From Phocoena phocoena (taxonomy: Eukaryota > Chordata > Mammalia > Artiodactyla > Phocoenidae), in contig NW_027077409.1 of the NCBI RefSeq assembly GCF_963924675.1, positions 186,001-250,000 of the forward strand: a stretch of DNA of 64,000 nucleotides, in the 5' to 3' direction. Numbering within the stretch: the first letter of the stretch is position 1; the number at the start of each line of letters is the position of its first letter. Below the pieces are notes generated by a model. The model made no database searches, had not been told where the DNA came from, and saw only the letters and a list, made by a program, of their open reading frames with translations. This document shows, piece by piece, positions 1 through 40,344 of this stretch. The translations under genes were made by a program, and so were the position numbers.

Positions 1-761
1 ATAATTCACTCAGGGCATGTGATGCAACCGGGATTTAACACATCTACACCCAGAGCTGGTTGAGACATAAGGCTGGACACTTCAGGCTGATAGCATTGGT
101 GAGTTTCGGTGAGCAAATGCAGACCCTTTGAAGTCATACTGCATGGTACCCATTCCATGGGTCCCAACTCTCCAGGTTCAAGGGATTCTTCCTCCAGCTA
201 AAACATGCATGGGAAACCAAGAGTATCGTCCACCATGTGATTGGGAAATGATTTAAAATGCATCTCAGTTTTCGTATCCTGGTCCTCGGGTTCACCATTC
301 CAGATGCTTTACTAACACTCTCCCCACTTGGAGAGTCAGTGCCTTTAACCTCCTCTTTGGCACAGCTTGCAATTTCTGTGCAAAATGAACAGGAATAGGG
401 AGAACCAATGAGAGACTAGCTGTAGGTGTCTGCACGGGCAAATGTAACGCTCATTGCCCACCAGGAAGACGAATTACACAAAGGCTCAGTGTGCCCTGCT
501 GGAAACAGATTAGGGCCTGAAGCAATCCTGCGGTTTTGTGCCCAGCTCACAAGAAAGCGAGTTGAAGAAAGGAGCTCAGGGGCACTGTAATTCACAAACC
601 TGCAGAGTTATAAATGACAGCTTTCCTCCAAAAATATATTGAAGTAAGCCTGCGAAGGGGACTTGAAAGCGGGGCAGAATTTCAGGAAAACGATTGCAGG
701 GGGTAGACTGGAATTGCCCTGAAAGCATAGGAAAAGAGGCAGAACGTCGACAATGATGCAC
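1..761. other. Non-L1 half of the monomer (shown in monomer 1)
   Basis: Bases 1-761 of the monomer (same offsets in all copies) show no similarity that I recognise to L1, SINEs, tRNA, rRNA or a coding gene. All frames on both strands are interrupted by stops, and the few open frames recur only because the repeat recurs. GC is moderate and no internal subrepeat is visible. Most A/B diagnostic differences of the 5' half lie here (for example tttcgg in A against tttagg in B at 111-116, gcatgg/gtatgg near 151). It may be an old transposon, an LTR remnant or former unique DNA captured with the L1. Confidence 0.6.
317..336. repeat. Short hairpin in type A monomers
   Basis: Seven-base inverted repeat actctcc / ggagagt separated by six bases. 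Type B monomers read agtctcc at the left arm, which shortens the stem. Probably incidental. Confidence 0.4.
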
Positions 762-833
762 TTGGCCATAAAGGGCGTATGCGTTTTTTCCTGAATATAT
801 TCAGGAAAAAACGCATACGCCCTTTTTGGCCAA
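762..833. repeat. 72 bp palindrome, one mismatch (monomer 1)
   Basis: Two 36-base arms meet with no spacer at 797/798 (centre aata/tatt). The outer ends are ttggcc and ggccaa. In this copy base 769 is t instead of a, giving a single arm mismatch. The base pairs just outside (c761, c834) do not match, so the palindrome stops sharply. Monomers 2-12, 14, 16-19, 21-23, 25-31, 35 and 37 carry the perfect form at start+761 to start+832. Confidence 0.95.
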
Positions 834-1356
834 CCAAGCAAGCCTGTAAATGAAATCTGCACTACAATGAAGTCTCACTGCCCCCCTGGCAAAAGGGCCA
901 TCTGAAAAAAGTGTAAAATCCAGAAAGGTAGGACAGGATATGGAGAACAGGGAGCCTTGTTATGCTGATTGGCAGGATGTAAATTGCCAGCAACCACCCT
1001 GGAGAAGTGTATGGTGTTTCCTGAAACACGAAAGAAACAAAGCAACACAGCCTATGGCACTTCCACTTATGGTCCTATAGCTTACGGAAATTAAAATCAA
1101 AAACAGACAGCCACCCCAATATTTGAGACGGCTGTGTTCACAAGAAGCTCGTCTACAGTATCAGGTAAATATCCCAGAAAGCAAAAAATGGATAAAGAAC
1201 TTGTGGCACGTACGTACAATGCAATATCACTCAGCAATGAAATCTGTGTCATCAGGCCCATAGCGGCATAGTGAGTGGATGCAGGTACGGTGATTCTACG
1301 TGAACTACGTCACACAGAAAAAGAATCATCATAAGATATCACGAATACACGGAATG

Positions 1357-1359
1357 TAA
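1357..1359 (+). other. Fossil L1 ORF2 stop codon (monomer 1)
   Basis: taa follows gga atg in the frame that reads H-K-I-S-R-I-H-G-M. It lies 139 codons downstream of the atg at 940 in the same frame, so the ORF2 register survives in length although internal stops have arisen. Confidence 0.65.
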
Positions 1360-1694
1360 ACTTGACTACATATGAACTGAATTACAAAATAGAAAAGGGT
1401 CTCAAATTTAGAAAACCAACTAGTGCTTGCTTATGGGGAAAGGTGCCTTGGGGTGCTGCATAAAACCAGAGACTGAAATTAGCACAGATAACTTTCCATA
1501 AGCCCAATATGTAATAGACAAGACCTACTCCTTGCTCAACGAAATGGACCCAACACCACATATTCAACGCCTAGGAATATACCTGACTAGGAAGAATCTT
1601 AAAACCCATGGATATATATGTCTCCGTAAGAGAATCAAGGGTGTGTACAGCGGCCGAAAGGCAGCAGTGAAAATCCGATAAATCCCATTATCAA

Positions 1695-1700
1695 AATAAA
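1695..1700 (+). promoter_or_regulatory. AATAAA polyadenylation signal of the L1 fragment (monomer 1)
   Basis: AATAAA directly before the A-rich tail, as expected at an L1 3' end. It is conserved in A and B monomers. Whether it acts on satellite transcripts is unknown. Confidence 0.6.
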
Positions 1701-2508
1701 TTTCGAAAACAAAACACAAAGACAGTGAAATAGAGAGCAATTCTTAAATAATTCACTCAGGGCATGTGATGCAACCGGGATTGACCACATCTACACCCAG
1801 AGCTGGTTGAGACATAAGGCTGGACACTTCAGGCTGATAGCATTGGTGAGTTTAGGTGAGCAAATGCACACCCTTTGAAGTCATACTGTATGGTACCTAT
1901 TCCATGGGTCCCAACTCTTCAGGTTCAAGGGATTCTTCCTCCAGCTAAAACATGCATGTGAAACCCACAGTATGGTCCACCGTGTTATGGGGAAATGATT
2001 TAAAATGCATCTCAGTTTTCGTATCCCGGTCCTCGGGTTCACCATTCCAGATGATTTACTAACAGTCTCCCTGCTTGGAGAGTCAGTGCCTTTAACCTCC
2101 TGTTTGGCACAGCTTGCAATTTCTGTGCAAGATGAACAGGAATAGGGAGAACCAATGAGAGACTAGCTGTAGGTGTCTGCACGGGCAAATGTAACGCTCA
2201 TTTCCCACCAGGAAGAGGAATTTACCAAAGGCTCAGCATGCCCTGCCCGAAACAGATTAGGGCCTGAAGCAATCCTGCGGTTTTGTGCCCAGTTCACAAG
2301 AAAGCGAGTTGAAGAAAGGAGCTCAGGGGCACTGTAATTCACAAACCTGCAGAGTTATAAATGACAGCTATCCTCCAAAAATATATTGAAGTAAGCCTGC
2401 GAAGGGGACTTGAAAGCGGGGCAGAATTTCAGGAAAACGATTGCAGGGGGTAGACTGGAATTGCCCTGAAAGCATAGGAAAAGAGGCAGAACGTCGACAA
2501 TGATGCAC

Positions 2509-2580
2509 TTGGCCAAAAAGGGCGTATGCGTTTTTTCCTGAATATATTCAGGAAAAAACGCATACGCCCTTTTTGGCCAA
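2509..2580. repeat. 72 bp perfect palindrome (monomer 2, reference copy)
   Basis: All 36 base pairs match, with no spacer at the centre. Arms run from ttggccaaaaagggcg through gtatgcgtttttt to cctgaata. As RNA from either strand it would form one hairpin of about 34 pairs with a four-base loop. As DNA it could extrude a cruciform. No protein-coding or terminator role is supported. Confidence 0.96.
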
Positions 2581-2593
2581 CCAAGCAAGCCTG

Positions 2594-3467
2594 TAAAGGA
2601 AATCTGCACTACAATGAAGTCTCACTGCCCCCCGGGCAAGAGGGCCATCTGAAAAAAGTGTAAAATCCAGAAAGGTAGGACAGGATATGGAGAACAGGGA
2701 GCCTTGTTATGCTGATTGGCAGGATGTAAATTGCCAGCAGCCAGCCTGGAGAAGTGTATGGTGTTTCCTGAAACACATAAGAAACAAAGCAACACAGTCT
2801 ATGGCACTTCCACTTATGGTCCTATAGCTTACGGAAATTAAAATCAAAAACAGACAGCCACCCCAATATTTGGGACGGCTGTGTTCACAAGAATCTCGTC
2901 TACAGTAACAGGTAAATATCCCAGAAAGCAAAATATGGATAAAGAAGTTGTGGCACGTACGTACAATGCAATATCACTCAGCAATGAAATCTGTGTCATC
3001 AGGCCCGTAGCGGCATAGTGAGTGGATGCAGGTACGGTGATTCTACGTGAACTACGTCACACAGAAAAAGAAACATCATAAGATATCACTAATACACGGA
3101 ATGTAAACTTGACTACACATGAACTGAATTACAAAACAGAACAGGGTCTCAAATTTAGAAAACCAGCTAGTGCTTGCTTATGGGGAAAGGTGCGTTGGGG
3201 TGCTTCATAAAATCAGAGACTGAAATTAGCACAGATAACTTTCCATAAGCCAAATATGTAATAGACAAGACCTACTCCTTGCTCAACGAAATGGACCCAA
3301 CACCACATATTCAACGCCTAGGAATATACCTGACTAGGAAGAATCTTAAAACCCATGGATATATATGTCTCCGTAAGAGAATCAAGCGTGTGTACAGTGG
3401 CATAAACGCAGCAGTGAAAATCCGATAAATCCCATTATCAAAATAAATTTCAAAAAAAAATCATAAA
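2594..3467 (+). mobile_element. 5'-truncated L1 LINE fragment, type B monomer
   Basis: Same L1 landmarks as in type A, with B-specific bases: cataag for cgaaag, tttggg for tttgag, taacagg for tatcagg, cgtagc for catagc, and an uninterrupted run of nine A followed by tcataaag as tail. The longer pure A run may be closer to the original poly(A), or may be later slippage. Confidence 0.85.
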
Positions 3468-3494
3468 GACAGTGAAATAGAGAGCAATTCTTAA

Positions 3495-5241
3495 ATAATT
3501 CACTCAGGGCATGTGATGCAACCGGGATTTAACACATCTACACCCAGAGCTGGTTGAGACATAAGGCTGGACACTTCAGGCTGATAGCATTGGTGAGTTT
3601 CGGTGAGCAAATGCAGACCCTTTGAAGTCATACTGCATGGTACCCATTCCATGGGTCCCAACTCTCCAGGTTCAAGGGATTCTTCCTCCAGCTAAAACAT
3701 GCATGGGAAACCAAGAGTATCGTCCACCATGTGATTGGGAAATGATTTAAAATGCATCTCAGTTTTCGTATCCTGGTCCTCGGGTTCACCATTCCAGATG
3801 CTTTACTAACACTCTCCCCGCTTGGAGAGTCAGTGCCTTTAACCTCCTCTTTGGCACAGCTTGCAATTTCTGTGCAAAATGAACAGGAATAGGGAGAACC
3901 AATGAGAGACTAGCTGTAGGTGTCTGCACGGGCAAATGTAACGCTCATTGCCCACCAGGAAGAGGAATTAAACAAAGGCTCAGTGTGCCCTGCTGGAAAC
4001 AGATTAGGGCCTGAAGCAATCCTGCGGTTTTGTGCCCAGCTCACAAGAAAGCGAGTTGAAGAAAGGAGCTCAGGGGCACTGTAATTCACAAACCTGCAGA
4101 GTTATAAATGACAGCTTTCCTCCAAAAATATATTGAAGTAAGCCTGCGAAGGGGACTTGAAAGCGGGGCAGAATTTCAGGAAAACGATTGCAGGGGGTAG
4201 ACTGGAATTGCCCTGAAAGCATAGGAAAAGAGGCAGAACGTCGACAATGATGCACTTGGCCAAAAAGGGCGTATGCGTTTTTTCCTGAATATATTCAGGA
4301 AAAAACGCATACGCCCTTTTTGGCCAACCAAGCAAGCCTGTAAATGAAATCTGCACTACAATGAAGTCTCACTGCCCCCCTGGCAAAAGGGCCATCTGAA
4401 AAAAGTGTAAAATCCAGAAAGGTAGGACAGGATATGGAGAACAGGGAGCCTTGTTATGCTGATTGGCAGGATGTAAATTGCCAGCAGCCACCCTGGAGAA
4501 GTGTATGGTGTTTCCTGAAACAGGAAAGAAACAAAGCAACACAGCCTATGGCACTTCCACTTATGGTCCTATAGCTTACGGAAATTAAAATCAAAAACAG
4601 ACAGCCACCCCAATATTTGAGACGGCTGTGTTCACAAGAAGCTCGTCTACAGTATCAGGTAAATATCCCAGAAAGCAAAAAATGGATAAAGAACTTGTGG
4701 CACGTACGTACAATGCAATATCACTCAGCAATGAAATCTGTGTCATCAGGCCCATAGCGGCATAGTGAGTGGATGCAGGTACGGTGATTCTACGTGAACT
4801 ACGTCACACAGAAAAAGAAACATCATAAGATATCACGAATACACGGAATGTAAACTTGACTACACATGAACTGAATTACAAAATAGAAAAGGGTCTCAAA
4901 TTTAGAAAACCAACTAGTGCTTGCTTATGGGGAAAGGTGCCTTGGGGTGCTGCATAAAACCAGAGACTGAAATTAGCACAGATAACTTTCCATAAGCCCA
5001 ATATGTAATAGACAAGACCTACTGTTTGCTCAACGAAATGGACCCAACACCACATATTCAACGCCTAGGTATATACCTGACTAGGAAGAATCTTAAAACC
5101 CATGGATATATATGTCTCCGTAAGAGAATCAAGGGTGTGTACAGCGGCCGAAAGGCAGCAGTGAAAATCCGATAAATCCCATTATCAAAATAAATTTCGA
5201 AAACAAAACACAAAAACAGTGAAATAGAGAGCAATTCTTAA
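3495..5241 (+). repeat. Monomer 3, type A
   Basis: Type A. Palindrome 4256-4327 perfect. L1 part 4341-5214. Private changes include aacaggaaag near 4530 and actgtttgctc near 5022. Confidence 0.92.
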
Positions 5242-6988
5242 ATAATTCACTCAGGGCATGTGATGCAACCGGGATTGACCACATCTACACCCAGAGCTGG
5301 TTGAGACATAAGGCTGGACACTTCAGGCTGATAGCATTGGTGAGTTTAGGTGAGCAAATGCACACCCTTTGAAGTCATACTGTATGGTACCTATTCCATG
5401 GGTCCCAACTCTTCAGGTTCAAGGGATTCTTCCTCCAGCTAAAACATGCATGTGAAACCCACAGTATGGTCCACCGTGTTATGGGGAAATGATTTAAAAT
5501 GCATCTCAGTTTTCGTATCCTGGTCCTCGGGTTCACCATTCCAGATGATTTACTAACAGTCTCCCTGCTTGGAGAGTCAGTGCCTTTAACCTCCTGTTTG
5601 GCACAGCTTGCAATTTCTGTGCAAGATGAACAGGAATAGGGAGAACCAATGAGAGACTAGCTGTAGGTGTCTGCACGGGCAAATGTAACGCTCATTTCCC
5701 ACCAGGAAGAGGAATTTACCAAAGGCTCAGCATGCCCTGCCCGAAACAGATTAGGGCCTGAAGCAATCCTGCGGTTTTGTGCCCAGTTCACAAGAAAGCG
5801 AGTTGAAGAAAGGAGCTCAGGGGCACTGTAATTCACAAACCTGCAGAGTTATAAATGACAGCTATCCTCCAAAAATATATTGAAGTAAGCCTGCGAAGGG
5901 GACTTGAAAGCAGGGCAGAATTTCAGGAAAACGATTGCAGGGGGTAGACTGGAATTGCCCTGAAAGCATAGGAAAAGAGGCAGAACGTCGACAATGATGC
6001 ACTTGGCCAAAAAGGGCGTATGCGTTTTTTCCTGAATATATTCAGGAAAAAACGCATACGCCCTTTTTGGCCAACCAAGCAAGCCTGTAAAGGAAATCTG
6101 CACTACAATGAAGTCTCACTGCCCCCCGGGCAAGAGGGCCATCTGAAAAAAGTGTAAAATCCAGAAAGGTAGGACAGGATATGGAGAACAGGGAGCCTTG
6201 TTATGCTGATTGGCAGGATGTAAATTGCCAGCAGCCAGCCTGGAGAAGTGTATGGTGTTTCCTGAAACACATAAGAAACAAAGCAACACAGTCTATGGCA
6301 CTTCCACTTATGGTCCTATAGCTTACGGAAATTAAAATCAAAAACAGACAGCCACCCCAATATTTGGGACGGCTGTGTTCACAAGAAGCTCGTCTACAGT
6401 AACAGGTAAATATCCCAGAAAGCAAAATATGGATAAAGAAGTTGTGGCACGTACGTACAATGCAATATCACTCAGCAATGAAATCTGTGTCATCAGGCCC
6501 GTAGCGGCATAGTGAGTGGATGCAGGTACGGTGATTCTACGTGAACTACGTCACACAGAAAAAGAAACATCATAAGATATCACTAATACACGGAATGTAA
6601 ACTTGACTACACATGAACTCAATTACAAAACAGAACAGGGTCTCAAATTTAGAAAACCAACTAGTGCTTGCTTATGGGGAAAGGTGCGTTGGGGTGCTTC
6701 ATAAAACCAGAGACTGAAATTAGCACAGATAACTTTCCATAAGCCAAATATGTAATAGACAAGACCTACTCCTTGCTCAACGAAATGGACCCAACACCAC
6801 ATATTCAACGCCTAGGAATATACCTGACTAGGAAGAATCTTAAAACCCATGGATATATATGTCTCCGTAAGAGAATCAAGCGTGTGTACAGCGGCATAAA
6901 CGCAGCAGTGAAAATCCGATAAATCCCATTATCAAAATAAATTTCAAAAAAAAATCATAAAGACAGTGAAATAGAGAGCAATTCTTAA
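5242..6988 (+). repeat. Monomer 4, type B
   Basis: Type B. Palindrome 6003-6074 perfect. L1 part 6088-6961. The variant aactcaattac near 6617 is shared only with monomer 7, three monomers away. Confidence 0.92.
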
Positions 6989-8735
6989 ATAATTCACTCA
7001 GGGCATGTGATGCAACCGGGATTTAACACATCTACACCCAGAGCTGGTTGAGACATAAGGCTGGACACTTCAGGCTGATAGCATTGGTGAGTTTCGGTGA
7101 GCAAATGCAGACCCTTTGAAGTCATACTGTATGGTACCTATTCCATGGGTCCCAACTCTTCAGGTTCAAGGGATTCTTCCTCCAGCTAAAACATGCATGT
7201 GAAACCCACAGTATGGTCCACCGTGTTATGGGGAAATGATTTAAAATGCATCTCAGTTTTCGTATCCTGGTCCTCGGGTTCACCATTCCAGATGATTTAC
7301 TAACAGTCTCCCTGCTTGGAGAGTCAGTGCCTTTAACCTCCTGTTTGGCACAGCTTGCAATTTCTGTGCAAGATGAACAGGAATAGGGAGAACCAATGAG
7401 AGACTAGCTGTAGGTGTCTGCACGGGCAAATGTAACGCTCATTTCCCACCAGGAAGAGGAATTTACCAAAGGCTCAGCATGCCCTGCCCGAAACAGATTA
7501 GGGCCTGAAGCAATCCTGCGGTTTTGTGCCCAGTTCACAAGAAAGCGAGTTGAAGAAAGGAGCTCAGGGGCACTGTAATTCACAAACCTGCAGAGTTATA
7601 AATGACAGCTATCCTCCAAAAATATATTGAAGTAAGCCTGCGAAGGGGAGTTGAAAGCGGGGCAGAATTTCAGGAAAACGATTGCAGGGGGTAGACTGGA
7701 ATTGCCCTGAAAGCATAGGAAAAGAGGCAGAACGTCGACAATGATGCACTTGGCCAAAAAGGGCGTATGCGTTTTTTCCTGAATATATTCAGGAAAAAAC
7801 GCATACGCCCTTTTTGGCCAACCAAGCAAGCCTGTAAAGGAAATCTGCACTACAATGAAGTCTCACTGCCCCCCGGGCAAGAGGGCCATCTGAAAAAAGT
7901 GTAAAATCCAGAAAGGTAGGACAGGATATGGAGAACAGGGAGCCTTGTTATGCTGATTGGCAGGATGTAAATTGCCAGCAGCCAGCCTGGAGAAGTGTAT
8001 GGTGTTTCCTGAAACACATAAGAAACAAAGCAACACAGTCTATGGCACTTCCACTTATGGTCCTATAGCTTACGGAAATTAAAATCAAAAACAGACAGCC
8101 ACCCCAATATTTGGGACGGCTGTGTTCACAAGAAGCTCGTCTACAGTAACAGGTAAATATCCCAGAAAGCAAAATATGGATAAAGAAGTTGTGGCACGTA
8201 CGTACAATGCAATATCACTCAGCAATGAAATCTGTGTCATCAGGCCCGTAGCGGCATAGTGAGTGGATGCAGGTACGGTGATTCTACGTGAACTACGTCA
8301 CACAGAAAAAGAAACATCATAAGATATCACTAATACACGGAATGTAAACTTGACTACACATGAACTGAATTACAAAACAGAACAGGGTCTCAAATTTAGA
8401 AAACCAACTAGTGCTTGCTTATGGGGAAAGGTGCGTTGGGGTGCTTCATAAAACCAGAGACTGAAATTAGCACAGATAACTTTCCATAAGCCAAATATGT
8501 AATAGACAAGACCTACTCCTTGCTCAACGAAATGGACCCAACACCACATATTCAACGCCTAGGAATATACCTGACTAGGAAGAATCTTAAAACCCATGGA
8601 TATATATGTCTCCGTAAGAGAATCAAGCGTGTGTACAGCGGCATAAACGCAGCAGTGAAAATCCGATAAATCCCATTATCAAAATAAATTTCAAAAAAAA
8701 ATCATAAAGACAGTGAAATAGAGAGCAAATCTTAA
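6989..8735 (+). repeat. Monomer 5, A/B mosaic (A start, then B)
   Basis: A-type to about 7110 (gatttaaca, tttcgg, gcagacc), then B-type from about 7130 (gtatgg onward). Palindrome 7750-7821 perfect. L1 part 7835-8708. The variant ggggagttg near 7646 is shared with monomer 8. It follows B monomer 4, breaking the A/B alternation. Confidence 0.92.
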
Positions 8736-10482
8736 ATAATTCACTCAGGGCATGTGATGCAACCGGGATTTAACACATCTACACCCAGAGCTGGTTGAGA
8801 CATAAGGCTGGACACTTCAGGCTGATAGCATTGGTGAGTTTCGGTGAGCAAATGCAGACCCTTTGAAGTCATACTGCATGGTACCCATTCCATGGGTCCC
8901 AACTCTCCAGGTTCAAGGGATTCTTCCTCCAGCTAAAACATGCATGGGAAACCAAGAGTATCGTCCACCATGTGATTGGGAAATGATTTAAAATGCATCT
9001 CAGTTTTCGTATCCTGGTCCTCGGGTTCACCATTCCAGATGCTTTACTAACACTCTCCCCGCTTGGAGAGTCAGTGCCTTTAACCTCCTCTTTGGCACAG
9101 CTTGCAATTTCTGTGCAAAATGAACAGGAATAGGGAGAACCAATGAGAGACTAGCTGTAGGTGTCTGCACGGGCAAATGTAACGCTCATTGCCCACCAGG
9201 AAGACGAATTAAACAAAGGCTCAGTGTGCCCTGCTGGAAACAGATTAGGGCCTGAAGCAATCCTGCGGTTTTGTGCCCAGCTCACAAGAAAGCGAGTTGA
9301 AGAAAGGAGCTCAGGGGCACTGTAATTCACAAACCTGCAGAGTTATAAATGACAGCTTTCCTCCAAAAATATATTGAAGTAAGCCTGCGAAGGGGACTTG
9401 AAAGCGGGGCAGAATTTCAGGAAAACGATTGCAGGGGGTAGACTGGAATTGCCCTGAAAGCATAGGAAAAGAGGCAGAACGTCGACAATGATGCACTTGG
9501 CCAAAAAGGGCGTATGCGTTTTTTCCTGAATATATTCAGGAAAAAACGCATACGCCCTTTTTGGCCAACCAAGCAAGCCTGTAAATGAAATCTGCACTAC
9601 AATGAAGTCTCACTGCCCCCCTGGCAAAAGGGCCATCTGAAAAAAGTGTAAAATCCAGAAAGGTAGGACAGGATATGGAGAACAGGGAGCCTTGTTATGC
9701 TGATTGGCAGGATGTAAATTGCCAGCAACCACCCTGGAGAAGTGTATGGTGTTTCCTGAAACACGAAAGAAACAAAGCAACACAGCCTATGGCACTTCCA
9801 CTTATGGTCCTATAGCTTACGGAAATTAAAATCAAAAACAGACAGCCACCCCAATATTTGAGACGGCTGTGTTCACAAGAAGCTCGTCTACAGTATCAGG
9901 TAAATATCCCAGAAAGCAAAAAATGGATAAAGAACTTGTGGCACGTACGTACAATGCAATATCACTCAGCAATGAAATCTGTGTCATCAGGCCCATAGCG
10001 GCATAGTGAGTGGATGCAGGTACGGTGATTCTACGTGAACTACGTCACACAGAAAAAGAATCATCATAAGATATCACGAATACACGGAATGTAAACTTGA
10101 CTACACATGAACTGAATTACAAAATAGAAAAGGGTCTCAAATTTAGAAAACCAACTAGTGCTTGCTTATGGGGAAAGGTGCCTTGGGGTGCTGCATAAAA
10201 CCAGAGACTGAAATTAGCACAGATAACTTTCCATAAGCCCAATATGTAATAGACAAGACCTACTCCTTGCTCAACGAAATGGACCCAACACCACATATTC
10301 AACGCCTAGGAATATACCTGACTAGGAAGAATCTTAAAACCCATGGATATATATGTCTCCGTAAGAGAATCAAGGGTGTGTACAGCGGCCGAAAGGCAGC
10401 AGTGAAAATCCGATAAATCCCATTATCAAAATAAATTTCGAAAACAAAACACAAAGACAGTGAAATAGAGAGCAATTCTTAA
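8736..10482 (+). repeat. Monomer 6, type A
   Basis: Type A. Palindrome 9497-9568 perfect. L1 part 9582-10455. It shares gaagacg, cagcaacc and gaatcatc with monomers 1 and 9. Confidence 0.92.
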
Positions 10483-12229
10483 ATAATTCACTCAGGGCAT
10501 GTGATGCAACCGGGATTGACCACATCTACACCCAGAGCTGGTTGAGACATAAGGCTGGACACTTCAGGCTGATAGCATTGGTGAGTTTAGGTGAGCAAAT
10601 GCACACCCTTTGAAGTCATACTGTATGGTACCTATTCCATGGGTCCCAACTCTTCAGGTTCAAGGGATTCTTCCTCCAGCTAAAACATGCATGTGAAACC
10701 CACAGTATGGTCCACCGTGTTATGGGGAAATGATTTAAAATGCATCTCAGTTTTCGTATCCCGGTCCTCGGGTTCACCATTCCAGATGATTTACTAACAG
10801 TCTCCCTGCTTGGAGAGTCAGTGCCTTTAACCTCCTGTTTGGCACAGCTTGCAATTTCTGTGCAAGATGAACAGGAATAGGGAGAACCAATGAGAGACTA
10901 GCTGTAGGTGTCTGCACGGGCAAATGTAACGCTCATTTCCCACCAGGAAGAGGAATTTACCAAAGGCTCAGCATGCCCTGCCCGAAACAGATTAGGGCCT
11001 GAAGCAATCCTGCGGTTTTGTGCCCAGTTCACAAGAAAGCGAGTTGAAGAAAGGAGCTCAGGGGCACTGTAATTCACAAACCTGCAGAGTTATAAATGAC
11101 AGCTATCCTCCAAAAATATATTGAAGTAAGCCTGCGAAGGGGACTTGAAAGCGGGGCAGAATTTCAGGAAAACGATTGCAGGGGGTAGACTGGAATTGCC
11201 CTGAAAGCATAGGAAAAGAGGCAGAACGTCGACAATGATGCACTTGGCCAAAAAGGGCGTATGCGTTTTTTCCTGAATATATTCAGGAAAAAACGCATAC
11301 GCCCTTTTTGGCCAACCAAGCAAGCCTGTAAAGGAAATCTGCACTACAATGAAGTCTCACTGCCCCCCGGGCAAGAGGGCCATCTGAAAAAAGTGTAAAA
11401 TCCAGAAAGGTAGGACAGGATATGGAGAACAGGGAGCCTTGTTATGCTGATTGGCAGGATGTAAATTGCCAGCAGCCAGCCTGGAGAAGTGTATGGTGTT
11501 TCCTGAAACACATAAGAAACAAAGCAACACAGTCTATGGCACTTCCACTTATGGTCCTATAGCTTACGGAAATTAAAATCAAAAACAGACAGCCACCCCA
11601 ATATTTGGGACGGCTGTGTTCACAAGAAGCTCGTCTACAGTAACAGGTAAATATCCCAGAAAGCAAAATATGGATAAAGAAGTTGTGGCACGTACGTACA
11701 ATGCAATATCACTCAGCAATGAAATCTGTGTCATCAGGCCCGTAGCGGCATAGTGAGTGGATGCAGGTACGGTGATTCTACGTGAACTACGTCACACAGA
11801 AAAAGAAACATCATAAGATATCACTAATACACGGAATGTAAACTTGACTACACATGAACTCAATTACAAAACAGAACAGGGTCTCAAATTTAGAAAACCA
11901 ACTAGTGCTTGCTTATGGGGAAAGGTGCATTGGGGTGCTTCATAAAACCAGAGACTGAAATTAGCACAGATAACTTTCCATAAGCCAAATATGTAATAGA
12001 CAAGACCTACTCCTTGCTCAACGAAATGGACCCAACACCACATATTCAACGCCTAGGAATATACCTGACTAGGAAGAATCTTAAAACCCATGGATATATA
12101 TGTCTCCGTAAGAGAATCAAGCGTGTGTACAGCGGCATAAACGCAGCAGTGAAAATCCGATAAATCCCATTATCAAAATAAATTTCAAAAAAAAATCATA
12201 AAGACAGTGAAATAGAGAGCAATTCTTAA
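10483..12229 (+). repeat. Monomer 7, type B
   Basis: Type B. Palindrome 11244-11315 perfect. L1 part 11329-12202. tcccgg near 10760 is shared with monomers 2 and 10, and aactcaattac near 11858 with monomer 4. Its two halves thus have different nearest relatives. Confidence 0.92.
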
Positions 12230-13976
12230 ATAATTCACTCAGGGCATGTGATGCAACCGGGATTTAACACATCTACACCCAGAGCTGGTTGAGACATAAG
12301 GCTGGACACTTCAGGCTGATAGCATTGGTGAGTTTAGGTGAGCAAATGCACACCCTTTGAAGTCATACTGTATGGTACCTATTCCATGGGTCCCAACTCT
12401 TCAGGTTCAAGGGATTCTTCCTCCAGCTAAAACATGCATGTGAAACCCACAGTATGGTCCACCGTGTTATGGGGAAATGATTTAAAATGCATCTCAGTTT
12501 TCGTATCCTGGTCCTCGGGTTCACCATTCCAGATGATTTACTAACAGTCTCCCTGCTTGGAGAGTCAGTGCCTTTAACCTCCTGTTTGGCACAGCTTGCA
12601 ATTTCTGTGCAAGATGAACAGGAATAGGGAGAACCAATGAGAGACTAGCTGTAGGTGTCTGCACGGGCAAATGTAACGCTCATTTCCCACCAGGAAGAGG
12701 AATTTACCAAAGGCTCAGCATGCCCTGCCCGAAACAGATTAGGGCCTGAAGCAATCCTGCGGTTTTGTGCCCAGTTCACAAGAAAGCGAGTTGAAGAAAG
12801 GAGCTCAGGGGCACTGTAATTCACAAACCTGCAGAGTTATAAATGACAGCTATCCTCCAAAAATATATTGAAGTAAGCCTGCGAAGGGGAGTTGAAAGCG
12901 GGGCAGAATTTCAGGAAAACGATTGCAGGGGGTAGACTGGAATTGCCCTGAAAGCATAGGAAAAGAGGCAGAACGTCGACAATGATGCACTTGGCCAAAA
13001 AGGGCGTATGCGTTTTTTCCTGAATATATTCAGGAAAAAACGCATACGCCCTTTTTGGCCAACCAAGCAAGCCTGTAAAGGAAATCTGCACTACAATGAA
13101 GTCTCACTGCCCCCCGGGCAAGAGGGCCATCTGAAAAAAGTGTAAAATCCAGAAAGGTAGGACAGGATATGGAGAACAGGGAGCCTTGTTATGCTGATTG
13201 GCAGGATGTAAATTGCCAGCAGCCAGCCTGGAGAAGTGTATGGTGTTTCCTGAAACACATAAGAAACAAAGCAACACAGTCTATGGCACTTCCACTTATG
13301 GTCCTATAGCTTACGGAAATTAAAATCAAAAACAGACAGCCACCCCAATATTTGGGATGGCTGTGTTCACAAGAAGCTCGTCTACAGTAACAGGTAAATA
13401 TCCCAGAAAGCAAAATATGGATAAAGAAGTTGTGGCACGTACGTACAATGCAATATCACTCAGCAATGAAATCTGTGTCATCAGGCCCGTAGCGGCATAG
13501 TGAGTGGATGCAGGTACGGTGATTCTACGTGAACTACGTCACACAGAAAAAGAAACATCATAAGATATCACTAATACACGGAATGTAAACTTGACTACAC
13601 ATGAACTGAATTACAAAACAGAACAGGGTCTCAAATTTAGAAAACCAACTAGTGCTTGCTTATGGGGAAAGGTGCGTTGGGGTGCTTCATAAAACCAGAG
13701 ACTGAAATTAGCACAGATAACTTTCCATAAGCCAAATATGTAATAGACAAGACCTACTCCTTGCTCAACGAAATGGACCCAACACCACATATTCAACGCC
13801 TAGGAATATACCTGACTAGGAAGAATCTTAAAACCCATGGATATATATGTCTCCGTAAGAGAATCAAGCGTGTGTACAGCGGCATAAACGCAGCAGTGAA
13901 AATCCGATAAATCCCATTATCAAAATAAATTTCAAAAAAAAATCATAAAGACAGTGAAATAGAGAGCAATTCTTAA
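12230..13976 (+). repeat. Monomer 8, A/B mosaic (short A start, then B)
   Basis: A-type gatttaaca near 12262, then B-type from tttagg at about 12332. Palindrome 12991-13062 perfect. L1 part 13076-13949. Shares ggggagttg with monomer 5. It follows B monomer 7, a second alternation break. Confidence 0.92.
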
Positions 13977-15723
13977 ATAATTCACTCAGGGCATGTGATG
14001 CAACCGGGATTTAACACATCTACACCCAGAGCTGGTTGAGACATAAGGCTGGACACTTCAGGCTGATAGCATTGGTGAGTTTCGGGGAGCAAATGCAGAC
14101 CCTTTGAAGTCATACTGCATGGTACCCATTCCATGGGTCCCAACTCTCCAGGTTCAAGGGATTCTTCCTCCAGCTAAAACATGCATGGGAAACCAAGAGT
14201 ATCGTCCACCATGTGATTGGGAAATGATTTAAAATGCATCTCAGTTTTCGTATCCTGGTCCTCGGGTTCACCATTCCAGATGCTTTACTAACACTCTCCC
14301 CGCTTGGAGAGTCAGTGCCTTTAACCTCCTCTTTGGCACAGCTTGCAATTTCTGTGCAAAATGAACAGGAATAGGGAGAACCAATGAGAGACTAGCTGTA
14401 GGTGTCTGCACGGGCAAATGTAACGCTCATTGCCCACCAGGAAGACGAATTAAACAAAGGCTCAGTGTGCCCTGCTGGAAACAGATTAGGGCCTGAAGCA
14501 ATCCTGCGGTTTTGTGCCCAGCTCACAAGAAAGCGAGTTGAAGAAAGGAGCTCAGGGGCACTGTAATTCACAAACCTGCAGAGTTATAAATGACAGCTTT
14601 CCTCCAAAAATATATTGAAGTAAGCCTGCGAAGGGGACTTGAAAGCGGGGCAGAATTTCAGGAAAACGATTGCAGGGGGTAGACTGGAATTGCCCTGAAA
14701 GCATAGGAAAAGAGGCAGAACGTCGACAATGATGCACTTGGCCAAAAAGGGCGTATGCGTTTTTTCCTGAATATATTCAGGAAAAAACGCATACGCCCTT
14801 TTTGGCCAACCAAGCAAGCCTGTAAATGAAATCTGCACTACAATGAAGTCTCACTGCCCCCCTGGCAAAAGGGCCATCTGAAAAAAGTGTAAAATCCAGA
14901 AAGGTAGGACAGGATATGGAGAACAGGGAGCCTTGTTATGCTGATTGGCAGGATGTAAATTGCCAGCAACCACCCTGGAGAAGTGTATGGTGTTTCCTGA
15001 AACACGAAAGAAACAAAGCAACACAGCCTATGGCACTTCCACTTATGGTCCTATAGCTTACGGAAATTAAAATCAAAAACAGACAGCCACCCCAATATTT
15101 GAGACGGCTGTGTTCACAAGAAGCTCGTCTACAGTATCAGGTAAATATCCCAGAAAGCAAAAAATGGATAAAGAACTTGTGGCACGTACGTACAATGCAA
15201 TATCACTCAGCAATGAAATCTGTGTCATCAGGCCCATAGCGGCATAGTGAGTGGATGCAGGTACGGTGATTCTACGTGAACTACGTCACACAGAAAAAGA
15301 ATCATCATAAGATATCACGAATACACGGAATGTAAACTTGACTACACATGAACTGAATTACAAAATAGAAAAGGGTCTCAAATTTAGAAAACCAACTAGT
15401 GCTTGCTTATGGGGAAAGGTGCCTTGGGGTGCTGCATAAAACCAGAGACTGAAATTAGCACAGATAACTTTCCATAAGCCCAATATGTAATAGACAAGAC
15501 CTACTCCTTGCTCAACGAAATGGACCCAACACCACATATTCAACGCCTAGGAATATACCTGACTAGGAAGAATCTTAAAACCCATGGATATATATGTCTC
15601 CGTAAGAGAATCAAGGGTGTGTACAGCGGCCGAAAGGCAGCAGTGAAAATCCGATAAATCCCATTATCAAAATAAATTTCGAAAACAAAACACAAAGACA
15701 GTGAAATAGAGAGCAATTCTTAA
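13977..15723 (+). repeat. Monomer 9, type A
   Basis: Type A. Palindrome 14738-14809 perfect. L1 part 14823-15696. Carries the monomer 1/6 variants. Private change tttcgggg near 14081. Confidence 0.92.
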
Positions 15724-17470
15724 ATAATTCACTCAGGGCATGTGATGCAACCGGGATTGACCACATCTACACCCAGAGCTGGTTGAGACATAAGGCTGGA
15801 CACTTCAGGCTGATAGCATTGGTGAGTTTAGGTGAGCAAATGCACACCCTTTGAAGTCATACTGTATGGTACCTATTCCATGGGTCCCAACTCTTCAGGT
15901 TCAAGGGATTCTTCCTCCAGCTAAAACATGCATGTGAAACCCACAGTATGGTCCACCGTGTTATGGGGAAATGATTTAAAATGCATCTCAGTTTTCGTAT
16001 CCCGGTCCTCGGGTTCACCATTCCAGATGATTTACTAACAGTCTCCCTGCTTGGAGAGTCAGTGCCTTTAACCTCCTGTTTGGCACAGCTTGCAATTTCT
16101 GTGCAAGATTAACAGGAATAGGGAGAACCAATGAGAGACTAGCTGTAGGTGTCTGCACGGGCAAATGTAACGCTCATTTCCCACCAGGAAGAGGAATTTA
16201 CCAAAGGCTCAGCATGCCCTGCCCGAAACAGATTAGGGCCTGAAGCAATCCTGCGGTTTTGTGCCCAGTTCACAAGAAAGCGAGTTGAAGAAAGGAGCTC
16301 AGGGGCACTGTAATTCACAAACCTGCAGAGTTATAAATGACAGCTATCCTCCAAAAATATATTGAAGTAAGCCTGCGAAGGGGACTTGAAAGCGGGGCAG
16401 AATTTCAGGAAAACGATTGCAGGGGGTAGACTGGAATTGCCCTGAAAGCATAGGAAAAGAGGCAGAACGTCGACAATGATGCACTTGGCCAAAAAGGGCG
16501 TATGCGTTTTTTCCTGAATATATTCAGGAAAAAACGCATACGCCCTTTTTGGCCAACCAAGCAAGCCTGTAAAGGAAATCTGCACTACAATGAAGTCTCA
16601 CTGCCCCCCGGGCAAGAGGGCCATCTGAAAAAAGTGTAAAATCCAGAAAGGTAGGACAGGATATGGAGAACAGGGAGCCTTGTTATGCTGATTGGCAGGA
16701 TGTAAATTGCCAGCAGCCAGCCTGGAGAAGTGTATGGTGTTTCCTGAAACACATAAGAAACAAAGCAACACAGTCTATGGCACTTCCACTTATGGTCCTA
16801 TAGCTTACGGAAATTAAAATCAAAAACAGACAGCCACCCCAATATTTGGGACGGCTGTGTTCACAAGAAGCTCGTCTACAGTAACAGGTAAATATCCCAG
16901 AAAGCAAAATATGGATAAAGAAGTTGTGGCACGTACGTACAATGCAATATCACTCAGCAATGAAATCTGTGTCATCAGGCCCGTAGCGGCATAGTGAGTG
17001 GATGCAGGTACGGTGATTCTACGTGAACTACGTCACACAGAAAAAGAAACATCATAAGATATCACTAATACACGGAATGTAAACTTGACTACACATGAAC
17101 TGAATTACAAAACAGAACAGGGTCTCAAATTTAGAAAACCAACTAGTGCTTGCTTATGGGGAAAGGTGCGTTGGGGTGCTTCATAAAACCAGAGACTGAA
17201 ATTAGCACAGATAACTTTCCATAAGCCAAATATGTAATAGACAAGACCTACTCCTTGCTCAACGAAATGGACCCAACACCACATATTCAACGCCTAGGAA
17301 TATACCTGACTAGGAAGAATCTTAAAACCCATGGATATATATGTCTCCGTAAGAGAATCAAGCGTGTGTACAGCGGCATAAACGCAGCAGTGAAAATCCG
17401 ATAAATCCCATTATCAAAATAAATTTCAAAAAAAAATCATAAAGACAGTGAAATAGAGAGCAATTCTTAA
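15724..17470 (+). repeat. Monomer 10, type B
   Basis: Type B. Palindrome 16485-16556 perfect. L1 part 16570-17443. tcccgg near 16000 is shared with monomers 2 and 7. Private change aagattaac near 16106. Confidence 0.92.
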
Positions 17471-19217
17471 ATAATTCACTCAGGGCATGTGATGCAACCG
17501 GGATTTAACACATCTACACCCAGAGCTGGTTGAGACATAAGGCTGGACACTTCAGGCTGATAGCATTGGTGAGTTTCGGTGAGCAAATGCAGACCCTTTG
17601 AAGTCATACTGCATGGTACCCATTCCATGGGTCCCAACTCTCCAGGTTCAAGGGATTCTTCCTCCAGCTAAAACATGCATGGGAAACCAAGAGTATCGTC
17701 CACCATGTGATTGGGAAATGATTTAAAATGCATCTCAGTTTTCGTATCCTGGTCCTCGGGTTCACCATTCCAGATGCTTTACTAACACTCTCCCCGCTTG
17801 GAGAGTCAGTGCCTTTAACCTCCTCTTTGGCACAGCTTGCAATTTCTGTGCAAAATGAACAGGAATAGGGAGAACCAATGAGAGACTAGCTGTAGGTGTC
17901 TGCACGGGCAAATGTAACGCTCATTGCCCACCAGGAAGAGGAATTAAACAAAGGCTCAGTGTGCCCTGCTGGAAACAGATTAGGGCCTGAAGCAATCCTG
18001 CGGTTTTGTGCCCAGCTCACAAGAAAGCGAGTTGAAGAAAGGAGCTCAGGGGCACTGTAATTCACAAACCTGCAGAGTTATAAATGACAGCTTTCCTCCA
18101 AAAATATATTGAAGTAAGCCTGCGAAGGGGACTTGAAAGCGGGGCAGAATTTCAGGAAAACGATTGCAGGGGGTAGACTGGAATTGCCCTGAAAGCATAG
18201 GAAAAGAGGCAGAACGTCGACAATGATGCACTTGGCCAAAAAGGGCGTATGCGTTTTTTCCTGAATATATTCAGGAAAAAACGCATACGCCCTTTTTGGC
18301 CAACCAAGCAAGCCTGTAAATGAAATCTGCACTACAATGAAGTCTCACTGCCCCCCTGGCAAAAGGGCCATCTGAAAAAAGTGTAAAATCCAGAAAGGTA
18401 GGACAGGATATGGAGAACAGGGAGCCTTGTTATGCTGATTGGCAGGATGTAAATTGCCAGCAGCCACCCTGGAGAAGTGTATGGTGTTTCCTGAAACACG
18501 AAAGAAACAAAGCAACACAGCCTATGGCACTTCCACTTATGGTCCTATAGCTTACGGAAATTAAAATCAAAAACAGACAGCCACCCCAATATTTGAGACG
18601 GCTGTGTTCACAAGAAGCTCGTCTACAGTATCAGGTAAATATCCCAGAAAGCAAAAAATGGATAAAGAACTTGTGGCACGTACGTACAATGCAATATCAC
18701 TCAGCAATGAAATCTGTGTCATCAGGCCCATAGCGGCATAGTGAGTGGATGCAGGTACGGTGATTCTACGTGAACTACGTCACACAGAAAAAGAAACATC
18801 ATAAGATATCACGAATACACGGAATGTAAACTTGACTACACATGAACTGAATTACAAAATAGAAAAGGGTCTCAAATTTAGAAAACCAACTAGTGCTTGC
18901 TTATGGGGAAAGGTGCCTTGGGGTGCTGCATAAAACCAGAGACTGAAATTAGCACAGATAACTTTCCATAAGCCCAATATGTAATAGACAAGACCTACTC
19001 CTTGCTCAACGAAATGGACCCAACACCACATATTCAACGCCTAGGAATATACCTGACTAGGAAGAATCTTAAAACCCATGGATATATATGTCTCCGTAAG
19101 AGAATCAAGGGTGTGTACAGCGGCCGAAAGGCAGCAGTGAAAATCCGATAAATCCCATTATCAAAATAAATTTCGAAAACAAAACACAAAGACAGTGAAA
19201 TAGAGAGCAATTCTTAA
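17471..19217 (+). repeat. Monomer 11, type A
   Basis: Type A with no private change noticed, close to the A consensus. Palindrome 18232-18303 perfect. L1 part 18317-19190. Confidence 0.92.
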
Positions 19218-20964
19218 ATAATTCACTCAGGGCATGTGATGCAACCGGGATTGACCACATCTACACCCAGAGCTGGTTGAGACATAAGGCTGGACACTTC
19301 AGGCTGATAGCATTGGTGAGTTTAGGTGAGCAAATGCACACCCTTTGAAGTCATACTGTATGGTACCTATTCCATGGGTCCCAACTCTTCAGGTTCAAGG
19401 GATTCTTCCTCCAGCTAAAACATGCATGTGAAACCCACAGTATGGTCCACCGTGTTATGGGGAAATGATTTAAAATGCATCTCAGTTTTCGTATCCTGGT
19501 CCTCGGGTTCACCATTCCAGATGATTTACTAACAGTCTCCCTGCTTGGAGAGTCAGTGCCTTTAACCTCCTGTTTGGCACAGCTTGCAATTTCTGTGCAA
19601 GATGAACAGGAATAGGGAGAACCAATGAGAGACTAGCTGTAGGTGTCTGCACGGGCAAATGTAACGCTCATTTCCCACCAGGAAGAGGAATTTACCAAAG
19701 GCTCAGCATGCCCTGCCCGAAACAGATTAGGGCCTGAAGCAATCCTGAGGTTTTGTGCCCAGTTCACAAGAAAGCGAGTTGAAGAAAGGAGCTCAGGGGC
19801 ACTGTAATTCACAAACCTGCAGAGTTATAAATGACAGCTATCCTCCAAAAATATATTGAAGTAAGCCTGCGAAGGGGACTTGAAAGCGGGGCAGAATTTC
19901 AGGGACACGATTGCAGGGGGTAGACTGGAATTGCCCTGAAAGCATAGGAAAAGAGGCAGAACGTCGACAATGATGCACTTGGCCAAAAAGGGCGTATGCG
20001 TTTTTTCCTGAATATATTCAGGAAAAAACGCATACGCCCTTTTTGGCCAACCAAGCAAGCCTGTAAAGGAAATCTGCACTACAATGAAGTCTCACTGCCC
20101 CCCGGGCAAGAGGGCCATCTGAAAAAAGTGTAAAATCCAGAAAGGTAGGACAGGATATGGAGAACAGGGAGCCTTGTTATGCTGATTGGCAGGATGTAAA
20201 TTGCCAGCAGCCAGCCTGGAGAAGTGTATGGTGTTTCCTGAAACACATAAGAAACAAAGCAACACAGTCTATGGCACTTCCACTTATGGTCCTATAGCTT
20301 ACGGAAATTAAAATCAAAAACAGACAGCCACCCCAATATTTGGGACGGCTGTGTTCACAAGAAGCTCGTCTACAGTAACAGGTAAATATCCCAGAAAGCA
20401 AAATATGGATAAAGAAGTTGTGGCACGTACGTACAATGCAATATCACTCAGCAATGAAATCTGTGTCATCAGGCCCGTAGCGGCATAGTGAGTGGATGCA
20501 GGTACGGTGATTCTACGTGAACTACGTCACACAGAAAAAGAAACATCATAAGATATCACTAATACACGGAATGTAAACTTGACTACACATGAACTGAATT
20601 ACAAAACAGAACAGGGTCTCAAATTTAGAAAACCAACTAGTGCTTGCTTATGGGGAAAGGTGCGTTGGGGTGCTTCATAAAACCAGAGACTGAAATTAGC
20701 ACAGATAACTTTCCATAAGCCAAGTATGTAATAGACAAGACCTACTCCTTGCTCAACGAAATGGACCCAACACCACATATTCAACGCCTAGGAATATACC
20801 TGACTAGGAAGAATCTTAAAACCCATGGATATATATGTCTCCGTAAGAGAATCAAGCGTGTGTACAGCGGCATAAACGCAGCAGTGAAAATCCGATAAAT
20901 CCCATTATCAAAATAAATTTCAAAAAAAAATCATAAAGACAGTGAAATAGAGAGCAATTCTTAA
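19218..20964 (+). repeat. Monomer 12, type B
   Basis: Type B. Palindrome 19979-20050 perfect. L1 part 20064-20937. Private changes cctgagg near 19747, agggacacg near 19902 and ccaagtatg near 20722. Confidence 0.92.
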
Positions 20965-22711
20965 ATAATTCACTCAGGGCATGTGATGCAACCGGGATTT
21001 AACACATCTACACCCAGAGCTGGTTGAGACATAAGGCTGGACACTTCAGGCTGATAGCATTGGTGAGTTTCGGTGAGCAAATGCAGACCCTTTGAAGTCA
21101 TACTGCATGGTACCCATTCCATGGGTCCCAACTCTCCAGGTTCAAGGGATTCTTCCTCCAGCTAAAACATGCATGGGAAACCAAGAGTATCGTCCACCAT
21201 GTGATTGGGAAATGATTTAAAATGCATCTCAGTTTTCGTATCCTGGTCCTCGGGTTCACCATTCCAGATGCTTTACTAACACTCTCCCCGCTTGGAGAGT
21301 CAGTGCCTTTAACCTCCTCTTTGGCACAGCTTGCAATTTCTGTGCAAAATGAACAGGAATAGGGAGAACCAATGAGAGACTAGCTGTAGGTGTCTGCACG
21401 GGCAAATGTAACGCTCATTTCCCACCAGGAAGAGGAATTAACCAAAGGCTCAGCGTGCCCTGCCGGAAACAGATTAGGGCCTGAAGCAATCCTGCGGTTT
21501 TGTGCCCAGCTCACAAGAAAGCGAGTTGAAGAAAGGAGCTCAGGGGCACTGTAATTCACAAACCTGCAGAGTTATAAATGACAGCTTTCCTCCAAAAATA
21601 TATTGAAGTAAGCCTGCGAAGGGGAGTTGAAAGCGGGGCAGAATTTCAGGAAAACGATTGCAGGGGGTAGACTGGAATTGCCCTGAAAGCATAGGAAAAG
21701 AGGCAGAACGTCGACAATGATGCACTTGGCCAAAAAGGGCGTATGTGTTTTTTCCTGAATATATTCAGGAAAAAACGCATACGCCCTTTTTGGCCAACCA
21801 AGCAAGCCTGTAAATGAAATCTGCACTACAATGAAGTCTCACTGCCCCCCTGGCAAAAGGGCCATCTGAAAAAAGTGTAAAATCCAGAAAGGTAGGACAG
21901 GATATGGAGAACAGGGAGCCTTGTTATGCTGATTGGCAGGATGTAAATTGCCAGCAGCCACCCTGGAGAAGTGTATGGTGTTTCCTGAAACACGAAAGAA
22001 ACAAAGCAACACAGCCTATGGCACTTCCACTTATGGTCCTATAGCTTACGGAAATTAACATCAAAAACAGACAGCCACCCCAATATTTGAGACGGCTGTG
22101 TTCACAAGAAGCTCGTCTACAGTATCAGGTAAATATCCCAGAAAGCAAAAAATGGATAAAGAACTTGTGGCACGTACGTACAATGCAATATCACTCAGCA
22201 ATGAAATCTGTGTCATCAGGCCCATAGCGGCATAGTGAGTGGATGCAGGTACGGTGATTCTACGTGAACTACGTCACACAGAAAAAGAAACATCATAAGA
22301 TATCACGAATACACGGAATGTAAACTTGACTACACATGAACTGAATTACAAAATAGAAAAGGGTCTCAAATTTAGAAAACCAACTAGTGCTTGCTTATGG
22401 GGAAAGGTGCCTTGGGGTGCTGCATAAAACCAGAGACTGAAATTAGCACAGATAACTTTCCATAAGCCCAATATGTAATAGACAAGACCTACTCCTTGCT
22501 CAACGAAATGGACCCAACACCACATATTCAACGCCTAGGAATATACCTGACTAGGAAGAATCTTAAAACCCATGGATATATATGTCTCCGTAAGAGAATC
22601 AAGGGTGTGTACAGCGGCCGAAAGGCAGCAGTGAAAATCCGATAAATCCCATTATCAAAATAAATTTCGAAAACAAAACACAAAGACAGTGAAATAGAGA
22701 GCAATTCTTAA
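20965..22711 (+). repeat. Monomer 13, type A'
   Basis: A-type ends with an A' centre: catttcccacc, aattaacc, cagcgtgccctgccgg, ggggagttg, and gtatgtg in the left palindrome arm. Palindrome 21726-21797 has one mismatch. L1 part 21811-22684. Confidence 0.92.
21726..21797. repeat. 72 bp palindrome, A' form with one fixed mismatch
   Basis: The left arm reads gtatgtg where the perfect form has gtatgcg, while the right arm is unchanged. The same change is in monomers 20 (33954-34025), 33 (56662-56733), 34 (58409-58480) and 36 (61903-61974). It was copied between monomers without any compensating change in the other arm. In RNA from the + strand the pair would be a G:U-type wobble. Confidence 0.93.
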
Positions 22712-34939: not shown

Positions 34940-35878
34940 ATAATTCACTCAGGGCATGTGATGCAACCGGGATTGACCACATCTACACCCAGAGCTGGTT
35001 GAGACATAAGGCTGGACACTTCAGGCTGATAGCATTGGTGAGTTTAGGTGAGCAAATGCACACCCTTTGAAGTCATACTGTATGGTACCTATTCCATGGG
35101 TCCCAACTCTTCAGGTTCAAGGGATTCTTCCTCCAGCTAAAACATGCATGTGAAACCCACAGTATGGTCCACCGTGTTATGGGGAAATGATTTAAAATGC
35201 ATCTCAGTTTTCGTATCCTGGTCCTCGGGTTCACCATTCCAGATGATTTACTAACAGTCTCCCTGCTTGGAGAGTCAGTGCCTTTAACCTCCTGTTTGGC
35301 ACAGCTTGCAATTTCTGTGCAAGATGAACAGGAATAGGGAGAACCAATGAGAGACTAGCTGTAGGTGTCTGCACGGGCAAATGTAACGCTCATTTCCCAC
35401 CAGGAAGAGGAATTTACCAAAGGCTCAGCATGCCCTGCCCGAAACAGATTAGGGCCTGAAGCAATCCTGCGGTTTTGTGCCCAGTTCACAAGAAAGCGAG
35501 TTGAAGAAAGGAGCTCAGGGGCACTGTAATTCACAAACCTGCAGAGTTATAAATGACAGCTATCCTCCAAAAATATATTGAAGTAAGCCTGCGAAGGGGA
35601 CTTGAAAGCGGGGCAGAATTTCTGGAAAACGATTGCAGGGGGTAGACTGGAATTGCCCTGAAAGCATAGGAAAAGAGGCAGAACGTCGACAATGATGCAC
35701 TTGGCCAAAAAGGGCGTATGCGTTTTTTCCTGAATATATTCAGGAAAAAACGCATACGCCCTTTTTGGCCAACCAAGCAAGCCTGTAAAGGAAATCTGCA
35801 CTACAATGAAGTCTCACTGCCCCCCGGGCAAGAGGGCCATCTGAAAAAAGTGTAAAATCCAGAAAGGTAGGACAGGAT

Positions 35879-40178: not shown

Positions 40179-40344
40179 ATAATTCACTCAGGGCATGTGA
40201 TGCAACCGGGATTTAACACATCTACACCCAGAGCTGGTTGAGACATAAGGCTGGACACTTCAGGCTGATAGCATTGGTGAGTTTCGGTGAGCAAATGCAG
40301 ACCCTTTGAAGTCATACTGCATGGTACCCATTCCATGGGTCCCA

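Follow-up and report, generated by a model that had tools for sequence, protein, structure and literature searches.

Origin and persistence of the palindrome

How does a palindrome of 72 bp with no spacer come to stand in every monomer of a long satellite array, when spacer-less palindromes of such size are expected to be fragile? The explanation that we favor, to which we give a probability of around 60%, is that satellite turnover has preserved the uniformity of an ancient palindrome, with weak long-term constraint as a possible addition. Here, we present the evidence from the array itself, from copies elsewhere in the genome, and from older lineages of the same satellite, and we then weigh the other explanations that have some claim to attention.

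Structure of the array

The window, by which we mean the whole 64-kb stretch of DNA that was analyzed, contains 37 copies of the palindrome, one per monomer of 1,746–1,747 bp (Table 1), and successive copies are separated by 1,747 bp in 32 of the 36 intervals and by 1,746 bp in the other four. The original prediction had placed a palindrome at the same position in every monomer, on a grid of about 1.75 kb, with 28 of the 37 copies perfect over all 36 base pairs. The grid is confirmed by these spacings, and our recount arrived at the same 28, the remaining nine copies having one to three altered bases. One of these nine is the copy at 762–833 itself, in which the 8th base is changed from A to T. 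Altogether, the imperfect copies carry 13 base changes, nine of them at CpG columns. It had also been claimed that the center, AATATATT, is unchanged in all copies; this holds for the window (37/37) and for the window only, as the center is altered in 2 of the 156 monomers scored in a wider sample that includes the window.

The 37 copies are not independent of each other because the monomers of the window belong to two main types that alternate irregularly, together with one outlier. Monomers two apart are on average more alike (98.5%) than neighbors (96.9%). Tandem Repeats Finder, run on the window with a longest period of 500, returned no rows.

Table 1. Coordinates in the window of the array, its first monomer, and individual palindromes
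Feature	Position	Strand	Remarks
Tandem array, head to tail, of 1,747-bp satellite monomers	1..64000	+	36 complete units and a partial one
First complete monomer	1..1747	+	Register of the analysis; palindrome = monomer bases 762-833
Palindrome copy 1	762..833	.	1 arm mismatch
Palindrome copy 2	2509..2580	.	Perfect; later copies every 1,746-1,747 bp up to 63650
Imperfect palindrome	21726..21797	.	1 mismatch, CpG to TpG
Imperfect palindrome	25219..25290	.	1 mismatch, CpG to CpA
Imperfect palindrome	33954..34025	.	1 mismatch, CpG to TpG
Imperfect palindrome	40940..41011	.	2 mismatches
Imperfect palindrome	54916..54987	.	3 mismatches
Imperfect palindrome	56662..56733	.	1 mismatch, CpG to TpG
Imperfect palindrome	58409..58480	.	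1 mismatch, CpG to TpG
Imperfect palindrome	61903..61974	.	2 mismatches
Final palindrome of the window	63650..63721	.	Perfect

Abundance and identity of the satellite

The window, at positions 186,001–250,000 of contig C77, is one stretch of a 2.51-Gb genome that we estimate to hold about 53,700 such palindromes. The estimate is based on a 31-nt pattern made of one arm and a neighboring base, with up to three mismatches allowed, which gave 53,671 matches in the forward and 53,743 in the reverse direction, and none when it was written backward as a control; as a palindrome yields one match per strand, these figures correspond to some 53,700 palindromes. With one 1,747-bp monomer per palindrome, this number of copies would occupy around 94 Mb, or 3.7% of the 2.51 Gb. 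Among the matches listed, there are interior sites on contigs C1 (at ~122 of 187 Mb), C2 (~94.6 of 178 Mb), C3 (~136 of 174 Mb), C5 (~51.6 of 140 Mb), C7 (~19.4 of 115 Mb), and C12 (~72 of 91 Mb), as well as one on C4 at 36.6 Mb, and there are sites near contig ends on C4, C6, C8, and C19, in addition to a second site on C1. Several contigs (C23, C28, C44, C70, C164, C251, and others) have sizes in exact multiples of 1,000 bases, which suggests curation cuts.

Judging from its unit size and abundance, we take the satellite of the window to be, most likely, the common cetacean satellite, which has a unit of about 1.75 kb in non-delphinid cetaceans and is very abundant, occurring on many chromosomes. 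This common cetacean DNA satellite is said to have been treated by Arnason, Gretarsdottir, and Widegren in 1992, in a paper that is among the references of PMC5615363. Here, the unit measures 1,746–1,747 bp in the window, and the estimate of ~53,700 palindromes, with many contigs among the matches listed, agrees with the expected abundance. The likeness covers the unit of ~1.75 kb, the abundance, and the presence of arrays both inside and near the ends of chromosomes.

Divergence among present-day copies

Our sample of 163 monomers was composed of the 37 from the window, 112 from 20 loci of 10 kb, and 14 from 22 loci of 600 bp, in eight of which the extrapolated position contained no palindrome. 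The 10-kb loci were chosen from the best matches to positions 700–900 of the window, a choice that favors close relatives. Scoring was possible for 156 of the 163 monomers, six being left out because they did not span all of the aligned columns and another for having more than six gaps. Two of the loci, L020 and L021, have rare variants in common and may be duplicates.

The original prediction had named arms diverging as fast as the flanks as its own refutation, and by this measure unusual conservation of the palindrome finds no support in the current copies. In the 119 monomers outside the window, non-CpG divergence from the consensus was 1.69% for the palindrome, 1.35% for the 72 bp to its left, and 2.92% for the 72 bp to its right. 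In 89 complete monomers, drawn from 97 by requiring intact palindrome borders and leaving out those with altered ones, the palindrome diverged by 1.95% against a mean of 2.30% for 72-bp windows, which puts it at the 46th percentile. Special conservation of the palindrome in the present arrays is rejected, its divergence being average for the monomer, and selection on the whole palindrome is not detectable among present copies. In the window alone, the palindrome ranks 219th among 1,676 windows ordered from the least to the most divergent, and in the 89 monomers its central 28 bp, a segment chosen post hoc, fall within the lowest 0.5% of windows.

Self-complementary copies decrease from 28 of 37 inside the window to 41 of 119 outside it, as would be expected from the accumulation of random change. 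The instability that is attributed to long palindromes can indeed be seen, but breakage is rare: only 2 of the 163 monomers have a large change, consisting of the loss of the center and right arm in L019 (near 7117) and a 14-bp tandem duplication in L037, and one-base deletions of the palindrome were found in 3 of 97 monomers, two of the three probably being duplicates of each other.

Older lineages and the reconstructed ancestor

A pattern restricted to the left flank recovered 42 diverged monomers, of which 5 were already in the sample and 37 were added; because it was designed from lineages first found with the palindrome pattern, these 42 copies favor those lineages. They are distributed among lineages I (31 copies), II (1), III (1), IV (4), and V (5). 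The palindrome is mostly near-perfect in lineages I, II, and III and decayed in lineages IV and V, and it is perfectly self-complementary in none of the 42 copies. Relative to the modern consensus, 7.7% of sites differ in the palindrome, 11.7% in the left flank, and 10.7% in the right flank. A further lineage, VI, was recovered with a palindrome-based pattern, so its low palindrome change is biased, and the tests below were made with and without it. A tree of ten full monomers, with an older one from the edge of an array added, is star-like, its basal splits having weak support (28–65). In lineages II and III (L110 and L111), good agreement with the monomer begins only around base 500, the match before that point being 38–59%, and these lineages look as if they had been truncated or joined to other DNA; their poorly aligned first 500 bases give them longer branches in the tree. 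Changes per lineage were counted over bases 501–1100 only.

The majority ancestor computed from the seven lineages (modern and I–VI) is a perfect 72-bp palindrome. At columns 12/59 (numbering is 0-based, column 7 being the 8th base), the T-A pair of this ancestor became G-C in the modern family, and these are the sole two modern changes in the 72 sites. Two random changes would be partners with a chance of 1/71, and about a third of those would be complementary, for an event observed in one lineage of seven. The ancestral state of column 12 becomes ambiguous when the older monomer, which has G, is used as the outgroup; the placing of T-A at the root of the modern family depends on lineages I and VI and on two basal modern copies.

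The number of changes in the palindrome, with the flank-based expectation in parentheses, was 2 (3.4) in the modern family, 1 (3.3) in lineage VI, 2 (3.8) in I, 1 (4.9) in II, 2 (5.5) in III, and 12 (6.9) in IV, while lineage V has 5 changes and three deletions (4.6). In lineage IV, both members of the 14/57 pair have changed in a complementary way, each at a CpG site. The five lineages with an intact palindrome, a grouping made post hoc, changed more slowly in the palindrome than in the flanks (8/360 compared with 151/2,598 sites, p = 0.0026; without VI, 7/288 compared with 128/2,090, p = 0.009), and among 386 overlapping windows taken from the flanks, not one showed so few changes as their palindrome. 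For lineages IV and V together, the palindrome was not significantly faster than the flanks (p = 0.15), and no difference in rate between palindrome and flanks was found for all seven lineages (p = 0.24; p = 0.41 without VI). Long-term retention of the palindrome is uneven among lineages.

The older monomer mentioned above, located at an array edge (L022:2616-4164, G000:C414), differs from the modern one by about 28% as far as base 1330, beyond which the two are 87–91% identical, and it is probably a composite of two histories. Identity is 85.7% in its palindrome, compared with 69% and 59% in the neighboring 72-bp segments, and the 75-bp block that contains the palindrome is the best kept of its diverged part. 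The fold is retained, although imperfectly (z = −6.0). At least 40 further places contain a 301-bp piece of this monomer (L022:3040-3340) with 100% identity; a distance of 25,207 bp between copies is seen twice on C59 and a distance of ~28.7 kb on C12, which perhaps reflects a compound unit of longer period.

Folding and sequence features

The original proposal of a hairpin former is in agreement with the predicted fold: folded as single-stranded DNA, copy 2 (72 nt) reaches −43.1 kcal/mol, compared with a shuffle mean of −7.9 (z = −15.4), and 0 of 200 shuffles fold as well. According to this single-strand model, the palindrome qualifies as a dyad with predicted extrusion. A CENP-B box is absent from the window consensus at up to one mismatch to the core or five to the full box. 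The ratio of observed to expected CpG is 1.28 within the palindrome (monomer bases 762–833) and 0.49 in the monomer, and in the 89 monomers CpG sites within the palindrome are changed at a rate of 4.2%, about half of the 8.8% found for those outside it. No direct repeat was seen by eye at the palindrome ends, where a palindromic transposon or MITE would have a target-site duplication, and a scan of viral contigs with the inner 50 bp of the palindrome gave no match. Elsewhere in the monomer, the segment at window positions 1190–1350 (monomer bases ~1190–1350) appears similar to the 3′ end of an L1 element.

Possible correction between the arms

The A to T change at the 8th base, in the left arm, is present in 31 of the 119 copies outside the window and in 1 of the 37 inside it, and in 14 of the 119 it is found with the inner 64 bases otherwise exact. 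The symmetric version of this change, with the inner 64 bases exact, exists once genome-wide. That so common a mismatch has a symmetric form only once argues that arm-to-arm correction is not frequent, at least at that outer pair, and frequent correction is rejected on this basis. Symmetric double changes in the 156 monomers number 5 against a shuffle mean of 1.9, which is a weak excess (77 of 2,000 shuffles were as high), and one copy has a complementary double change at columns 17/54.

G-C is found at columns 12/59 in 126 of the 156 monomers. T-A at this pair, with the remaining inner 56 bases exact, occurs in 355 copies genome-wide, and one-sided forms, with the remainder of the 56-mer exact, occur in 2,527 (1,341 forward and 1,186 reverse). 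The flanks of 20 of the 355 T-A copies belong to several monomer subfamilies, some of them ~11% diverged, and T-A is thus at least partly inherited; as it is also common to the older lineages, descent explains many of the 355 copies.

Comparison with known systems

Dyad symmetries of centromeric satellites were reportedly examined by Kasinathan and Henikoff in 2018. Our palindrome, considered from its sequence alone, resembles such symmetries in being an inverted repeat capable of forming a cruciform within a consensus in which no CENP-B box was found. However, the short dyads described at many centromeres in PMC8997354 are less than 10 bp long, unlike the single spacer-less palindrome of 72 bp per 1,747 bp found here. 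For its long unit, the satellite can be compared with another mammalian one, SATCHO2 of two-toed sloths, which was described together with SATCHO1 and has a unit of ~2,292 bp and predicted dyads, although the small palindromes reported in that work measure 4–5 bp (PMC7644632). Inverted symmetry in arrays is also known from the macro-dyad symmetries of Tribolium satellites, proposed to shape pericentromeric chromatin; these span tens of kilobases of arrays, whereas here the symmetric segment lies inside each monomer (PMC13081366). Among the papers listed in literature searches on cetacean satellites (including those of killer whales and baleen whales), whale centromere repeats, and perfect palindromes in satellites, none describes the 72-bp palindrome in its title or in the opening of its abstract, and an earlier description is possible.

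Alternative explanations

Could the palindrome be under selection as a dyad that is extruded as a hairpin or cruciform, aiding centromeric or pericentromeric chromatin in place of CENP-B boxes? Such a role has been proposed for short dyads at other centromeres, and for this palindrome we regard it as unlikely rather than far-fetched. The very stable predicted single-strand fold would suit it, as would the slower change in five of seven lineages, the best-kept 75-bp block of the older monomer's diverged part with its fold at z = −6.0, the complementary T-A to G-C switch, the lack of a CENP-B box in the window consensus at the thresholds scanned, the location of copies, among the matches listed, at interior sites and near the ends of chromosome-scale contigs, and the dyads of less than 10 bp reported from many centromeres in PMC8997354. 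Nevertheless, no constraint on the palindrome as a whole is detectable among present copies, two lineages have decayed, 0 of 42 diverged copies are perfectly self-complementary, and the seven lineages together are not slower (p = 0.24; p = 0.41 without VI). Perfection could also arise without selection if, during replication, hairpin-templated (quasipalindrome) correction copied one arm onto the other. Template switching of this kind has been reported in RNA genes (PMC8794818), and the switch at a single pair, the 355 symmetric T-A copies beside 2,527 one-sided ones, and the complementary doubles at 14/57 in lineage IV and 17/54 in one copy would be in keeping with it; however, descent accounts for many of the 355, the excess of symmetric doubles is weak (5 against 1.9, with 77 of 2,000 shuffles as high), and the 8th-base mismatch is symmetric in one copy genome-wide while 14 of 119 copies have it in exact asymmetric form, and we consider this mechanism improbable.

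The likelihood is smaller still that the hairpin is transcribed and processed as a putative small-RNA or miRNA-like precursor acting in the silencing of the satellite. The predicted RNA fold of the palindrome with its flanks (z = −10.5) would be compatible with such a precursor, and there were 18 weak Rfam matches, the best at E = 3.7e-05, which fell into six families of miRNA hairpins, but none of the 18 reached the gathering score of its family, all of them remaining below half of it, and three of the six families matched on both strands, which indicates generic hairpin similarity. Identity as a miRNA precursor is rejected because every gathering score was missed. Finally, long perfect palindromes can be misassembled, and the rounded sizes of several contigs, in multiples of 1,000 bases, might raise the suspicion of an assembly artefact. 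We give this almost no credence, as all 20 of the sampled loci of 10 kb, which come from 20 contigs, have this palindrome at the identical position, and it is also present in diverged lineages bearing their own substitutions.

Probable turnover with possible constraint

In the explanation that we prefer, turnover of an ancient palindrome, the palindrome would be an old, built-in segment of an abundant, long-unit mammalian satellite monomer, and the modern family would have expanded recently from a perfect founder. Whole monomers would turn over through unequal exchange and conversion between repeats, as the divergence of ~2% suggests, and the uniformity of the window would result from this turnover together with the recent expansion. 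Although it can form a hairpin or cruciform, a palindrome of 72 bp would be small enough to be passed on, in most cases, with no large rearrangement; hairpins probably form during replication, and palindromes would be lost more slowly than arrays turn over.

The slow change of the palindrome in several older lineages leaves room for weak long-term constraint in addition to turnover. Indeed, the slower change in five lineages, the retention in the older monomer, the complementary switch, and the low divergence of the central 28 bp provide a hint of constraint beyond turnover, for which the likeliest candidate might be a structural hairpin role in satellite chromatin. That the palindrome has a role in chromosome structure is a guess, and a structural function in centromeric DNA or in heterochromatin is possible, as argued for the shorter dyads of PMC8997354.

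Significance

Tens of thousands of copies of a 72-bp palindrome persist in one genome despite its expected fragility. If a cruciform former of 72 bp in a mammalian centromeric satellite had been weakly selected since before the lineages split, through the replacement of T-A by G-C, it would represent a long-dyad alternative to CENP-B boxes, a proposition that we hold to be rather doubtful. In any case, the system provides a natural count of the breakage, decay, and re-symmetrization of a 72-bp palindrome in a mammal, and it also offers a test of the proposal that centromeres lacking CENP-B boxes are marked by dyads.
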